Positions 18,704 through 29,431 of a stretch of 64,000 nucleotides of DNA are shown one piece after another. The position numbers and the translations under genes were made by a program. How positions within the stretch are numbered: the stretch's first letter is position 1; each line of letters opens with the position of its first letter. This DNA comes from an uncultured Lachnospiraceae bacterium. Lineage in GTDB: Bacteria; Bacillota; Clostridia; Lachnospirales; Lachnospiraceae. The notes beneath the pieces are model-generated. The model was not told the DNA's origin and ran no database searches. It was given only the letters and a program-made list of their open reading frames with translations. The stretch lies in assembly GCA_947630855.1 (NCBI GenBank), contig CANRJF010000004.1:1-64000 (forward strand), written 5' to 3'.

Positions 18704-19462
18704 CTACTTGGAAATATACTTATCCAGAAGTTCCTGATATTCCCCGTTTTCCTTCATCTCCGTAAGACCTTCATCAAACATCTTTAAAAGATCTGCATTT
18801 TCTCCTTTTAAAACTGCAAATCCGTAAGAAGAACCCCGCTCCATCTCCGTGGGAAGTTTTAATTCCAGTCCACGGGAAATCTCATAACCCATAACAGGGT
18901 AGTCATCAAAACATGCCGCACATGTGCCTGCCAATACGGACTGATACATACTTGCGGAATCCTCAAACTGGGTAACCGTAAAACCATATTCGTCCGCAAT
19001 GGACTCTGCAAAGGTACATCCTTCCGCACCGATTTTCGCAGCTACTTCTTTTCCTGCCAAATCTTCGTAACTTGCAATGTCACTGTCTGCGGCCACACCC
19101 ATTCCCACGCCGGAATCATAGTATGACTGGGAAAAATCATATTTTTCCTTTCTCTCATCGGTAATGGACATTCCTGCAATCATGCCGTCCGCCTCCCCGG
19201 ACTCTAAAGCCGTCATGGCTGCCTGGAATCCTATGTACTGCCATTCTACCTCAAATCCCTTTTTCTCTGCAATGGCATTTACCAGTTCGATATCGATACC
19301 TACCATATTGCCGTCATCTCCCTCAAACTCAAAGGGGGCAAAGGTGGTGTCTGTGGCGATGGTATACTTCTTTCCTGCCCCGTCACTGCCTTTTGAGCCG
19401 CAGGCCGCAAAGGATAACACCATCACTCCTGTTAATAATACGCTTAAAATTCTTTTTTTCAT
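18704..19462 (-). CDS. amino-acid ABC transporter substrate-binding lipoprotein
   Basis: lipobox MVLSFAACGS; SBP_bac_3 motifs (TIATDTTFAPFEFEGDDG); probable start MKKRILS. Confidence 0.95.
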   Translation of the reverse strand: MKKRILSVLLTGVMVLSFAACGSKGSDGAGKKYTIATDTTFAPFEFEGDDGNMVGIDIELVNAIAEKKGFEVEWQYIGFQAAMTALESGEADGMIAGMSITDERKEKYDFSQSYYDSGVGMGVAADSDIASYEDLAGKEVAAKIGAEGCTFAESIADEYGFTVTQFEDSASMYQSVLAGTCAACFDDYPVMGYEISRGLELKLPTEMERGSSYGFAVLKGENADLLKMFDEGLTEMKENGEYQELLDKYISK

Positions 19463-19522
19463 AAATACAATCCTCCTCATAATAAATTTAGTAAAAGCAA
19501 CGCCAACGCAGTTTCCATATGG

Positions 19523-19616: not shown

Positions 19617-19625
19617 CTGTTTTTT

Positions 19626-20218
19626 CGATTTGACTTTCCCCATTTTTTATCGGCAAAAACCGCTTTTCCCTAATTTACTGGTGTCTGCCTTATCTGCTGT
19701 GATGTTTTTTTACATTTGCAAAAGTATCTGCATGGATAAAAATCCTCTTGGTATGTTCCGCAGCCTTACGCTTTTGGAAAGGACTAAGTTCTGCATCTGT
19801 GAAGCTTTTATTATGCGCCTTTTCGCAAACTTGCACCAGAAAGCCTAAGATAACTGCTTTTTGCAGGTGCTTGGACGCCGCCGGTGTTTATGAGGGCGTT
19901 TCTTATACTACAAGTCAATATTATTTTGTACGCCCTCATTATGCACCGCTGCGTGCGTCCAGCAGCGGGAGCGTGCCTGACAAAAGCAGTTATCATTAGG
20001 CTTCTGGCGCTTCAAACAATGCAAAAAGGCGCACCAGCATCACAGATGCAGAACATAAGTCCTTCCTCAAAAGCTAACTGCCGGAACATACCAATGAGGA
20101 TTTTCACCATGCGCTTTTCTGCAAATGTAAAAAAACATTCTACGGACAATGGCGGAAAACACAAATTGAGAAAAGCGGCTTTTGCCAATAAAGAAATGGG
20201 GAAACTCAAATTTTTTGG
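19626..20218. repeat. ~590-bp imperfect inverted repeat (arms 19626-19898 and 19931-20218, 32-nt centre)
   Basis: Left arm aligns with reverse complement of right arm, e.g. tttttttacatttgca, ttggtatgttccg, gttctgcatctgtga, agcctaa(t)gataactgctttt, atgagggcg. Confidence 0.88.
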
Positions 20219-20219
20219 C

Positions 20220-21500
20220 CTACTCATACCGCAAAGCCTCAATAGGATTTAATTTTGCCGCCTTGTTTGCCGGATAATACCCGAAAAATACGCCGATGAA
20301 AACGGAAAAAGCCACCGCAAAAACAATCCCTCCCAGGGAAGGAGATGCCTGATACCCCATAGTTTCCGCCGCCCCGCTGCCCAGGGCAAGCCCTAAGAGA
20401 ATCCCCATCAATCCCCCCAGAAGGCAGATAATAACAGATTCCATAATAAACTGCAGCCGTATGCTGCCGTTGGTGGCGCCCAATGCCTTTCTTATGCCGA
20501 TTTCCCTGGTACGTTCCGTTATGGAAACAAGCATAATATTCATAACGCCGATTCCCCCTACCAGAAGGGAAATCCCTGCAATAATGGAAATGGCAACAGA
20601 GATAGTGGAAAGCATATCCGTCATGGTGGACAACAGGGTTTCCATGCTGGTAACACTCACTTCATAATATGTATTGTTACTGTAATACCTGTCAAAAAAC
20701 TGCTCTGCCTGCTCCATAAAAGATTCCGTGTCTGTCCCTGTGGTTGTCACCAATGTCAACTGGGTATAACCGTCACCGGAATGGGTAAGGGACTTTGCTG
20801 TACCAAAGGGAATATAAAAGTCTGTGGTAATATCTTCCGTGGAGGAAGAATCAAAACCGGAGGACTCATACTCATACACCCCAATAATGGTATATCCATA
20901 ATATCGGTTGTTTATCTCCACTTCCACCAAAGAGCCTACGGCATCTTTTACATTTCCCCCGAAAAGATTTGTTACCAGCAAATCCGAGACAACCGCCACT
21001 TTTTTTGACTTCTCCTGGTCTAATTCCATAAAATCCCTGCCGGCTAAGATGGTAAGTTCATTACATTCCACCTGTCCCTGGTTCACCCCGGTCACATTTA
21101 CATTTGCCGTGGAGGAACCGTTTACCGCTGTACCGCTTCCCGCAGACTCCGTATAGGCAATATAGTCGATTTTGCCGCCAAAATTATTTTGTAATTCCTC
21201 TAGCATTTCATCGGAAATATAATCTTCCTCCCCCATGCTGCGTATATTCCCCATACCGAAACGCATACCGTTTTCCTTTACTTCCCCGGAAACGCTTTTC
21301 TGTTTCACCCCCACCGTCAGGTTGTTTGCCCCCATGGATTCCATGGAACTGGTAACGGAGGAATTAAGGGAATTTCCCACGGTGAGGATTGTTATAATGG
21401 AAGCAATCCCGATGACAATGCCAATCATGGTCAGGGCTCCCCGCATTCTGTTGGTTTTTAAACCCGAAACTGCAAACCTTATATTTTCACTAATTATCAT
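20220..21500 (-). CDS. MacB/FtsX-type ABC transporter permease
   Basis: MIISENIRFAVSGLKTNRMRGALTMIGIVIGIASII and GIRKALGATNGSIRLQFIMESVIICLLGG. Confidence 0.92.
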   Translation of the reverse strand: MIISENIRFAVSGLKTNRMRGALTMIGIVIGIASIITILTVGNSLNSSVTSSMESMGANNLTVGVKQKSVSGEVKENGMRFGMGNIRSMGEEDYISDEMLEELQNNFGGKIDYIAYTESAGSGTAVNGSSTANVNVTGVNQGQVECNELTILAGRDFMELDQEKSKKVAVVSDLLVTNLFGGNVKDAVGSLVEVEINNRYYGYTIIGVYEYESSGFDSSSTEDITTDFYIPFGTAKSLTHSGDGYTQLTLVTTTGTDTESFMEQAEQFFDRYYSNNTYYEVSVTSMETLLSTMTDMLSTISVAISIIAGISLLVGGIGVMNIMLVSITERTREIGIRKALGATNGSIRLQFIMESVIICLLGGLMGILLGLALGSGAAETMGYQASPSLGGIVFAVAFSVFIGVFFGYYPANKAAKLNPIEALRYE

Positions 21501-21510
21501 GGCAGACCTC

Positions 21511-23361
21511 CTAAAATCCGCCCGGGGCGCCGCCCCCCGGCATTTTGCCGCCCTCATGGTTTCTGCCGCTTTGTCCCCCTGGAGCGCCTTCCATATTTAA
21601 ATCAAACAGGCTCTTCGTATCCCCGCTTGTATTTTCCTCCTCTGATTTCACGGATGCAGCAGGCGTTACGATTCTCATGTTTTCTTCCAATCCCTCCCCG
21701 GCAATTTCCACATAATAATCGCTTTCCATTCCCGTTTCCACGAAAATCTGTTTTTCCTCCCCGCCATCCTCATCCAACACGGAGACGTAAGATTTTCCAT
21801 CCTTGTCTGTCCTGATACAGTCATAAGCCACTGCAAATACGTCCTGGGCAGATTCTAACACTATACTGGTTTTTGCCGTCATTCCGATGCGGAGGCGGTC
21901 ACTGGTATCTTCTAAGGCAATTTTTACGGTATAACTGGCTGTGGAGGATGCATTTGAATTTCCCATGTCTAAGCCTTCGGATTCCTCCGGTGTGGGCGCC
22001 ACATAGGTAACTACCCCCTTTAATTCCTCATCCCCGGTGGCATCTGTCTTTACCACTGCCTCCTGATTTTTTTCAATATCCGCAATGTCATACTCGTCCA
22101 CGGAAGCCTCCACGATAAACTGGGATAAATCCTGCACTACAAACAGTACGCTTTCCCCTGTATAAATATCTCCTGCCTCCACATTTACGGCGGTAATCAC
22201 CCCTGTGATTGGGGAGGTAATCACACATTCTCCCAGCTTTTCTTCCGCTTCCTGCACCTGCTTTTTCTGATTTTTTAAATTATTTTCCACTTCCTTACTG
22301 GTAACTGTCAAATCTGATTTACTCTCTTCAATATTATCTGCATTCTGGGCATTTGTCTCTGCCTGGGAAGTTACTGCACTGTTGTATTCCGTGGATTTTT
22401 TTGAAGCTTCTGCTGATGCCGTCTCGTAGGAAGATTTTGCCTGTTCCTCGGCTGCCTTTGCCTCCTCATATTTTTGCTTTGCCGCCTCAATGGCATCATA
22501 GGCGGCTTTCGCCTGCTCCTCTCCTGCCTTTGCCTCTTGTGCTGCCTTGTTTGCCGCCTCGTATGTATTGTAAGCACTTGTATATGCCTCATACAGGGCG
22601 GCATAATTTTCATCCTCCTCTTTTGCATATTTAATTGCCGCCTCCGCCGTCTCATAGGCAGATTTTGCCTGCTCCGCCGCCTGGGATTTCTCCTGGGCAT
22701 TTCTGCTTGCGGATTCCAAATCACTTTTCAGGGAATCCTTTTTCTTTTTTAATTTTTCATATTCTTTTTTTGCTTTCTCTGCCGTCTCTTTTGCAGATTC
22801 GTATGTACTTTTCGCCTGGGATTTTGCAGATTCCGCCGCCTCATATGCCGTTTTTGCCTGGGACACGTTATCTGCCTGTTTCTGCGCCTGGCTGTTATAA
22901 TTTGTCTGGGCATCCTCCACATTATCCTGGGCTTTCTTTAATGTCTGGTTCTCCTTTAATTCACTGACTTCATAAGATTCTTTTGTATCCGCCAGCTCCT
23001 CCTCTAAATCCTCTGAGTCAAAAACAACAATGGTATCCCCTGCATTGACATAATCCCCCACTGCCGCCGCTATCTCCTTAACTTCTACGTCCTTCATACT
23101 GGCAGAAACACTGCGGCAATCGCCACTGGCAATGCTGCCTGTCAGACTGATGGAATTGGAAATATCCCTTTTCTTTAACGTCTCTGTCTGGGTAAATGAT
23201 ACATTTTCCGGATTTTTCTCTTTTGCAGCATTTTTTCTTATGCCATTTGCCAGCACAATAAGTAATGCCAGAAAAATCACCGCCGCCGTAATGATAATTT
23301 TTATCTTCCCCTTTTTCACGTAAAACCTCCTTAAAATACACAAATACGCCTGCAACGCCAT
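21511..23361 (-). CDS. HlyD/MacA-like efflux adaptor with long coiled-coil hairpin
   Basis: N-terminal TM helix, lipoyl/barrel-sandwich motifs, ~240-aa A/K/E-rich coiled coil; exact start uncertain. Confidence 0.88.
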   Translation of the reverse strand: MALQAYLCILRRFYVKKGKIKIIITAAVIFLALLIVLANGIRKNAAKEKNPENVSFTQTETLKKRDISNSISLTGSIASGDCRSVSASMKDVEVKEIAAAVGDYVNAGDTIVVFDSEDLEEELADTKESYEVSELKENQTLKKAQDNVEDAQTNYNSQAQKQADNVSQAKTAYEAAESAKSQAKSTYESAKETAEKAKKEYEKLKKKKDSLKSDLESASRNAQEKSQAAEQAKSAYETAEAAIKYAKEEDENYAALYEAYTSAYNTYEAANKAAQEAKAGEEQAKAAYDAIEAAKQKYEEAKAAEEQAKSSYETASAEASKKSTEYNSAVTSQAETNAQNADNIEESKSDLTVTSKEVENNLKNQKKQVQEAEEKLGECVITSPITGVITAVNVEAGDIYTGESVLFVVQDLSQFIVEASVDEYDIADIEKNQEAVVKTDATGDEELKGVVTYVAPTPEESEGLDMGNSNASSTASYTVKIALEDTSDRLRIGMTAKTSIVLESAQDVFAVAYDCIRTDKDGKSYVSVLDEDGGEEKQIFVETGMESDYYVEIAGEGLEENMRIVTPAASVKSEEENTSGDTKSLFDLNMEGAPGGQSGRNHEGGKMPGGGAPGGF

Positions 23362-25220: not shown

Positions 25221-27484
25221 CTATGAGGTTTTTCCACTCTCTTTTTCATTGCAGGATAAAACAAAGCAGGCAGATTCATTTTTGCCGCTGACGCTTATGC
25301 AGCACATTCCCCCGTCTTTTAGTTTCCCGAATAAAATCTCATCCACCAAAAGAGGCTTAATCTCGCTTTGAATCACACGTTCTATCTCCCTGGCGCCAAA
25401 CTCTTCGCTGATACCCTTGTTTTTCACCAGCTCTTTTGCTTTTTTATCATAAGAGATATCCACATTCTTTTTTGCCAGCAGGCTTTTCAGTTCTCCCAGT
25501 TTTTTCTCCACAATCTGTTTTGCCATGTTTTCATCCATGCCCTGGAATGTCACGATTTTATTCAGCCTGTTTCTGAATTCCGGCTGGAAAATCCGCTTTA
25601 CTTCCTCCATAATGGCGTCGGTTTTTACATCCTGCTCTCTAAAGCCTATGCCGTGTTTTCCCATCTGGCTGGCTCCCGCATTGGATGTCATAATCATAAT
25701 CACATTACGGAAATCTGCTTTTCTCCCCTGGTTATCCGTCAGGGTTGCATAGTCCATAACCGAAAGAAGCACGTTATAAATATCCGGGTGTGCCTTCTCA
25801 ATTTCATCCAGCAAAAGTACGGCGTGAGGGGTTTTTCGGATTTCCTCTGTCAAAAGTCCGCCTTCCTCATACCCCACATATCCTGCCGGCGCTCCGATTA
25901 GCTTTGCCACCGTGTGCTTTTCCTCATATTCACTCATATCAAAACGGATTAGGGGAATACCCAGCTCTTTTGCCAGACTTTTTGCTATTTCTGTTTTTCC
26001 CACACCGGTAGGGCCCACAAACAAAAGGCTTGCCATTGGCTTTCCTTCCTCCAAAAGCCCTGCCCTGGAAAATTTTACGGCATTCACCACCTGGGAAATA
26101 GCCTCCTCCTGGCCGTACACCTGATTTGTAAGACGCTCTTTTAATGTTGCAAGGGACTCCGTCTCGTCACTCTCCACCATCTGTTTTGGAATATGACAGG
26201 TTCTAGACAAAATTTCATCGATTAAATCCCTGGTCACAGCCTGCCTTTCCTGCTCAAAAGGATGGAGATGCAGATACGCCCCCGCCTCGTCAATTAAGTC
26301 GATGGCTTTATCCGGCAGATACCGCTCGTTCATATATTTTGCACTCATTTCCACTGCATATTTTAACACGTCATCCCCGTAAATTACCCCGTGGTAGTCC
26401 TCATAATTCTTTTTAAGACCTTCCAATATTAAAACGGCATGGGAAATATCCGGCTCTTTCACTTCTATATTCTGAAAACGCCTTACCAGACTTTTATTTT
26501 TCTCAAAATGCTTTTTATATTCTTCGTAAGTGGTGGCACCGATAAAACGGATATGTCCGGCTGCCAGGTATGGTTTTAACATATTTGAAATGTCAAATGT
26601 TCCCCCGTTTACCGCCCCTGCCCCTACGATATTGTGGATTTCATCAATATAGATAATAGGTTTTTCCTCATGGCTGATGCTGTCCATTACTTTTTTAAAG
26701 CGCTTTTCAAAATCCCCCCTGTACTGGGTGCCTGCCAGCAGGCTTCCCAAATCCAGGGAAAAAATTTTTGCCCCTTTTAAGGGCGCAGGCACCCTGTTCT
26801 CATTTAACAGCTTTGCCAGCCCGTAGGTAATGGCTGTCTTTCCTACTCCCGGCTCTCCTATATGCAGAGGATTATTTTTTTCTTTCCGGCAGAGAATCTG
26901 CATGGTTCTCTCTAACTCTTCCTCCCTGCCGATTAAGGGATTGACCCCTTCTAAGGCGTCATTTAAACAAAGGGCATACTGCTGATAAAAACCCTCCTTT
27001 GTCTTTCCTCCTCATCCTCCTGCCGGGTATCTTCCCTTATGGCGTTTTCACCGGATTTTTCCTCATAGGCAATGGACATCTCCTGGAGAAGCTCTGCCTG
27101 TTCCACCCCCTGGGCGCGCATATAGTAAACGGCATAACTCTCTTTTAACCCGTACATAGCATGGATAAGATGGGGCAGCTCCACCCAGTGTTTTCCGCTG
27201 TTTTCCGCGGATTCCTGTGCATAGCCCAGCACCATGCCCATGCCTCTGGAAAACTCGGGATTGCCTTCGGAATCCACCGTCTCTATATATTCATCCAGAT
27301 AAGTCCTTAAGTTGTAATCCAGTTCCTTAATTCTGCCGCCGCAGTTTTCAAATGCTTCCGCAAATATTTTATTCTGGCAGATAACATACAACGCCAGTTC
27401 CGGCGTAATCAGTTCAAAATGGGCATTTTTCGCCAGCACAAATACTTTGTTAATGATTTCTGCCACTTCTTCCGACACACGCAT
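25221..27484 (-). pseudogene. clpA: ATP-dependent Clp unfoldase ClpA, apparently frameshifted near 27004-27006
   Basis: N-terminal ORF 26963-27484 and AAA+ ORF 25221-26903 lie in different frames; the second frame reads upstream KTKEGFYQQYALCLNDALEGVNPLIGREEELERTMQ. Confidence 0.85.
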
Positions 27485-27486
27485 GA

Positions 27487-27786
27487 TTATGCCTCCTCCA
27501 CTGTCATACGAAAAGGAAATCCTTCTTCCTTTGCCCTTGCCGACGCTGCCAGAACCTTAGTAACCGCAATATCATAAGGATAAGAGCCTACTATGGCTCT
27601 TCCCCTCTCATGTACCGTCAACATTAACTGTTCTGCTTCCAGTTCTCCTTTATGGAAAATATCGATGAGTATATCCACCACAAACTCCATGGAAGTAAAA
27701 TCGTCATTATGCATCATCACATTGTAATGTTTTGGTTCCTGTATGTTGATTTTTGTTTTTTCCCTTGTTTCTCCCTGCACAGACAT
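27487..27786 (-). CDS. clpS: ATP-dependent Clp protease adaptor ClpS
   Basis: 99 aa; YNVMMHNDDFTSMEFVVDIL. Confidence 0.95.
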   Translation of the reverse strand: MSVQGETREKTKINIQEPKHYNVMMHNDDFTSMEFVVDILIDIFHKGELEAEQLMLTVHERGRAIVGSYPYDIAVTKVLAASARAKEEGFPFRMTVEEA

Positions 27787-27808
27787 ATTATACCTCTTGT
27801 GTCTATTA

Positions 27809-27835
27809 GTATCTTTTCAGTACCTTCACAGATAC
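27809..27835 (-). repeat. dispersed hairpin repeat family 2 (clpS leader)
   Basis: GTATCTGTGAAGGTACTGAAAAGATAC on minus strand. Confidence 0.65.
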
Positions 27836-27837
27836 AA

Positions 27838-27879
27838 TGCAAAAATGCATGAAAATCCCTTCGCGATGGCATTTTTGCA
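27838..27879. repeat. 11-bp perfect inverted repeat in the clpX-clpS intergenic region
   Basis: TGCAAAAATGC ... GCATTTTTGCA. Confidence 0.6.
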
Positions 27880-27940
27880 CACCTGAATTATATTCTTACG
27901 CCTCAAACAGCAAGTGTTTGAGGCTGCGTCTATTAAATTA

Positions 27941-29431
27941 TTAATACTTGAAATTTTCCGATACCCGCTGGGCAGCAACTGCTACCTTATCTTCAATGGA
28001 CATGCAGCCCCGCATAATAATCTGCGGGCCTCCGGCGCCCTCCACATACTCTTTTGTAATGATTACCATGCCGATATTATCATCTTTTGGTATCTCAAAC
28101 ATAATATCCAGCATAAACTCTTCAATAATTGCCCGAAGGGCCCTGGCTCCCACTTTTTTCTCTTTTGCCTTTACTGCAATGGCCCGAAGGGCGTCATCCT
28201 GAAACTCCAGTTTTACCTCGTCCAATGCCAGAAGTTTCTGATACTGCTTTACAATGGCATTCCTTGGCTCGGATAAAATTTTTACCAGCATATCTTCCGT
28301 CAGCGCCTCTAAGGAAAAGAGAATGGGCATACGTCCCAAAAACTCCGGTATCATGCCGTACTTGCGCACATCCTCCACCGTCACTTTTGTGAGAAGGTTC
28401 TCTTCCTTGTCATACTTGTCCTTTAAGTCCGCCTTAAAACCAATGGACGCCGACTTGTTGAGACGTTCTTTGATAATGTCTTCCAAATCCGGGAAAGCTC
28501 CGCCGCAGATAAACAAAATGTTTTTGGTGTTCACTGTTACCATGGGCACCATGGCATTTTTGCTGCTGGCTCCCACCGGCACTTCCACTTCTGAACCTTC
28601 TAACAGCTTTAACATTCCCTGCTGCACGGATTCCCCGCTCACATCCCTTTGATTGGCATTGCGCTTCTTGGCAATCTTATCAATCTCATCAATAAAGATA
28701 ATGCCCTGTTCCGCCCGCTCCACGTCATTGTCTGCCGCCGCAAGGAGTTTGCTTACAACGCTCTCAATATCATCACCGATGTACCCTGCTTCCGTAAGGG
28801 AGGTGGCGTCTGTAATGGCAAGGGGCACATCAAGAAGCCTTGCCAGTGTCTTTACCATATAGGTTTTCCCTGAGCCTGTGGGCCCAATCATTAACATATT
28901 GGATTTCTCGATTTCCACGTCGTTTTCCGCCATGGTTGCCACCCGTTTGTAGTGGTTGTAAACGGCGACGGACATTACCTTTTTGGCATATTCCTACCCT
29001 ACTACGTAGTCATCCAGCCTTTCTTTGATTTTGTGGGGCGCCGGAATACTCCTTATATCCAAAATAGGCTTTGCCTTGGCATCCTTTTTCTTTTTCTTTA
29101 TTTTCTGGGGCTGGGGCATTCCCATCCCCTGTAAATCCGCCAGATTAATCATGCTGATATTGGGAAATCTGCCTCCCATGTTTTTCATCATGTCATCCAT
29201 TGGAAAACCGGAGTTATTCATGGTATCAAATGTCTTCTGCATACAGTCCTGGCAGATGTAAATATCCTGGGGGATTTTAATCATCTTCCCCGCCACGCTC
29301 TCCGGCCTGCGGCACATGTAGCAAATCTGTTCGTAATCTTCTTCCCGGGATTTCTTTTTGTTTTCCTCTCCCTGGGAATCTCCTGTTTTTTCTTCCGTCG
29401 GCTCTACTTCAAAAAAATCCTGTTCTGACAT
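27941..29431 (-). pseudogene. clpX: ClpX-like AAA+ unfoldase with in-frame TAG at a conserved Gln codon
   Basis: ORF 28994-29461 ends [10 protein letters not shown]; same frame continues [18 protein letters not shown]...; zinc-finger CYMC..CQDC and SIGF loop present. Confidence 0.85.

Follow-up and report, generated by a model that had tools for sequence, protein, structure and literature searches.

The question raised by this locus is what kind of sequence fills the intergenic space next to an ABC permease gene in the genome of an uncultured Lachnospiraceae bacterium. The window, by which the whole 64,000-nt stretch of DNA analysed is meant, was originally predicted to carry here an imperfect inverted repeat of about 590 bp (19626-20218) with arms roughly three quarters identical. 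The repeat is real and the estimate of identity was close: when compared with its own reverse complement by BLAST, the region yields a single alignment (19628-20211) at 74% identity (E 6.8e-67), and alignment of one arm against the other gives 231 identical, 50 mismatched, and 42 gapped columns. A repeat finder recovered six nested inverted arm pairs in the region, and the two arms are collinear. The exact ends had to be moved to 19629 and 20210, where they are fixed by terminal repeats, giving an imperfect palindrome that runs end to end over 582 bp (Table 1). The suggestion that a transcript would form a giant hairpin is consistent with folding predictions, which return one long stem for either strand, at -296.6 kcal/mol for the + strand (shuffles about -153; z -22) and -322.6 kcal/mol for the - strand (shuffles about -158; z -28). 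Folded as DNA, the element has a z of -23.

The right end of the element is separated by 9 nt, not by the 1-2 nt first reported, from the stop codon of the permease gene (20220-20222). These 9 nt are the putative target duplication of the window copy, and the permease gene is intact because this putative duplication sits between the element and the stop codon. Just beyond the other edge of the element, a scan identified a promoter-like TTGACA (19616-19611) belonging to the solute-binding protein gene. Elsewhere in the window, a cluster of ClpS/ClpA-like and ClpX-like genes (25221-28975, - strand) was recognised from translations only.

Table 1. Features of the inverted repeat and its flanks, in window positions.
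Feature	Position	Strand	Basis or remark
MITE (highly probable)	19629..20210	.	74% self-alignment and further copies in the genome
Left terminal repeat, TTTGACTTTCCCCATTTTT	19629..19647	+	Identical to the resident IS end at the transposase C-terminal side
Right terminal repeat, TTTGAGTTTCCCCATTTCT	20192..20210	-	1 mismatch; resembles the IS end at the transposase N-terminal side (TTTGAG)
Putative target-site duplication, left copy, TTTTTTCGA	19620..19628	+	7/9 bases match right copy
Putative target-site duplication, right copy, TTTTTTGGC	20211..20219	+	7/9 bases match left copy
Left arm	19629..19898	+	Repeat finder, arm alignment, copy comparison
Right arm	19931..20210	-	Repeat finder, arm alignment, copy comparison
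MacB/FtsX-type ABC permease, intact	20220..21557	-	Pfam MacB_PCD and FtsX
Family 3 solute-binding protein, amino-acid-type ABC transporter	18704..19480	-	Pfam SBP_bac_3

The absence of any other copy had originally been named as a refutation, but the element is not confined to the window. A search covering the whole genome (255 contigs) found seven further contig ends that carry copies, with 90-97% identity to the window copy: C138 holds 503 nt of the element at 97%, covering the centre and the greater part of each arm, next to a different right flank, and further copies are found on C247, C230, C255, C137, C73, and C84 at 90-95%. Each of these sequences is cut short within the element by the end of its contig, as happens when a repeat interrupts an assembly, and the near-identity of the copy interiors needs to be read with caution since contigs end where copies become identical. 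Four distinct left ends and five distinct right ends, each with different flanks, indicate that there are at least five copies. Searches of 15 further genomes of the genus and of 297 others in the family found none, and no copy was seen whose insertion varies between strains. The interior had no match in the 312 genomes of the family, in Rfam, or, by blastn, in phages or plasmids, and the two matches obtained when relatives of the interior pattern were sought in GTDB genomes were both due to chance.

Every copy terminates in the 19-bp sequence TTTGA(C/G)TTTCCCCATTTTT or a near variant of it. These terminal inverted repeats agree at 18 of 19 positions, the C/G position aside, and the window element is asymmetric in this respect, with TTTGAC at its left end and TTTGAG at its right. 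Each of the four left flanks pairs best, and one-to-one, with a single right flank by way of a direct repeat at the junction. The duplication is ATAAATTTTCT for C73/C137 (11/11, two bases out from the right end), AAAATTTC for C84/C230 (8/8, one base off the left end), and CTTTTTG for C255/C247 (7/7), whereas the window copy has TTTTTTCG/TTTTTTGG, matching at 7/8 with a score of 3. Among 3000 shuffled flank pairs, a score of at least 7 arose in 0.07% and a score of at least 4 in 0.13%. The direct repeats of 7-11 bp are target-site duplications, exact in three sister copies; the imperfect duplication of the window copy (7/9 over the full repeat) is suggestive only. An empty site was found for the C255/C247 copy: the genes that flank its two ends adjoin each other in G007 and G009, and junction-spanning alignments to G001, G007, and G009 show a short spacer where the element would lie. 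This confirms both insertion and the pairing of ends by duplication for that sister copy alone. For the window copy, no counterpart of the neighbouring solute-binding gene was found within the genus at E 1e-30. For the C73/C137 copy, no relative matched both sides adjacent to each other.

The same ends also bound an insertion sequence (IS) in this genome. Allowing up to 2 mismatches, the end motif matches the genome 16 times, compared with 2 for the reversed pattern. An IS accounts for two of these 16 ends; its transposase is divided between two contigs, with the N-terminal part and an end in TTTGAG on C43 and the C-terminal part and an end in TTTGAC on C88. The transposase matches Pfam DDE_Tnp_1 above its cut-off and two NCBIfam IS4 models at E 3e-16 and 1e-8, both under the curated cut-offs. 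The IS flanks on C91 and C43 have 11 bp exactly in common. A 1423-bp IS with both ends is present in G006, of the same genus, where the reading frame looks interrupted (longest 295 aa). On C91 of G000 (L012 1507-1761), the transposase C-terminus at an IS end continues into sequence like that at the beginning of a serine recombinase (MKGNGTKITALYCRLSQDDGNIGDSM...), which would reflect either truncation of the IS or a chimeric contig. Elsewhere in G000, a 45-bp element on C31 (15678-15722; L016 1507-1551) consists of scarcely more than two terminal repeats back to back, and a short hydrophobic frame, MEIIITFLVAVAAGVACHYIIKWLDGGHKDNK, which resembles a type I toxin peptide and has no Pfam match, lies just inside a lone terminal repeat on C70 (L018 1613-1710).

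The multicopy state, the target duplications, the empty site found for a sister copy, and the presence in this genome of an IS sharing its ends together support reading the repeat as a mobile element, in line with the non-autonomous element that was among the original proposals. The element has no transposase of its own, and an autonomous element with equal ends is available in the genome. It is therefore highly probable that 19629-20210 is a MITE whose 19-bp ends are recognised by the resident IS4-like DDE transposase acting in trans. This transposase very probably moves the element: it would act on the 19-bp ends and excise or copy the element, which would insert into T- or A-rich intergenic sites and duplicate about 7-11 bp. 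The left and right arms retain their own fixed differences in every copy, so the inverted duplication that probably gave rise to the palindrome would predate the spread of the present copies, and the arms would since have drifted to 74% identity.

Might the hairpin itself have been the object of selection? A structured non-coding RNA, with a long stem kept by selection and spread as a repeat, would account for the very stable fold predicted on both strands. Such folding is expected of any palindrome, however, and the window had no match to Rfam at the gathering score. Further, while the - strand folds better, the two strands each have 10 arm mismatches that would form G-U pairs, a balance that offers no sign of selection on a folded RNA, and two ends of one copy do not resemble each other more closely than ends taken from different copies. 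The last comparison, made with ends paired by their duplications, also led to rejection of concerted evolution of the arms within a copy, which a shared T/T change had suggested; that change is private to the window copy. The RNA reading, one of those put forward originally, is thus very unlikely. RNA reading through past the permease stop would form a long hairpin that might serve as an mRNA end or as a target of RNase III, and nothing shows selection for either role. Usefulness of the palindrome to the element, for example as double-stranded read-through RNA or as an extruded cruciform that would aid transposition or cap host mRNA, is improbable.

The two arms could instead descend from a small gene, or from the end of a transposase, present as two head-to-head copies that have decayed. 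Translations of the arms do resemble each other, as originally noted, but that likeness follows from their DNA similarity, and a decayed gene pair has no support: neither arm frame contains a Pfam family, and tblastn of the transposase against the element gave only a 12-residue chance match. The C88 IS end aligns weakly with the left end of the element (73% over 45 bp, E 0.07), yet the element and the IS have no DNA match beyond their 19-20 bp ends, so the arms were rejected as pieces of the IS or of its transposase, and descent from such a gene is more doubtful still than selection on an RNA. Least credible of all is an assembly artefact in which two inverted copies were wrongly joined. The assembly is a draft with breaks inside the other copies, but the 503 nt on C138 carry the centre independently, next to another right flank, and the fixed differences of each arm are constant across all copies.

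The ends recur beyond this genome. At up to 1 mismatch the motif occurs in 25 of 397 genomes of the family, with exact matches in nine genomes besides the source genome. Seven of the 25 match as TTTGACTTTACCC, which was rejected as a transposon end since its context (LRFDFTHFS...) suggests a coding motif of alanyl-tRNA synthetase. In G190, of another genus, there are 71 matches to the end motif, or roughly 35 copies, and eight sampled places held seven elements of 196 bp and one of 63 bp, with duplications mostly of 8-10 bp (read by eye). The 196-bp element (e.g., L088 275-470) is largely self-complementary, with a fold z of -11, and these elements represent a clear MITE expansion. Short elements of other genera that are flanked by duplications also carry these ends. 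When the window element was compared with the IS and with two such elements, from G190 and G031, the ends matched and the interior did not.

Like bacterial MITEs such as QMITE2 of Coxiella burnetii, the window element has terminal inverted repeats, target direct repeats, and an intergenic location, encodes no transposase, and has a transcript predicted to form a stable stem (PMC10969869). MITEs typically occupy AT-rich intergenic sites and give transcripts with stable stem-loops, and their length is usually quoted as 50-500 bp (PMC10969869). In contrast, the window element measures 582 bp and is complementary over its whole length and not at its ends alone. With the resident IS (C43 and C88, and the related IS of G006) it has in common the 19-bp ends, the C/G difference between them, and target direct repeats, but the IS has a DDE transposase and an unrelated interior. 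With the 196-bp element of G190 it shares ends, duplications, and self-complementarity, but again not the interior. In the literature, the 19-bp end was not found in any paper, and no description of a Lachnospiraceae MITE was found. The element is a new MITE family, ordinary in kind, whose single unusual feature is a palindrome across all 582 bp.

To the Lachnospiraceae, the finding brings a MITE family together with a group of MITEs that have one 19-bp end in common. Additionally, the element accounts for several assembly breaks in this draft genome, and it offers a natural setting in which to ask how palindromes of 580 bp are tolerated by a bacterium.
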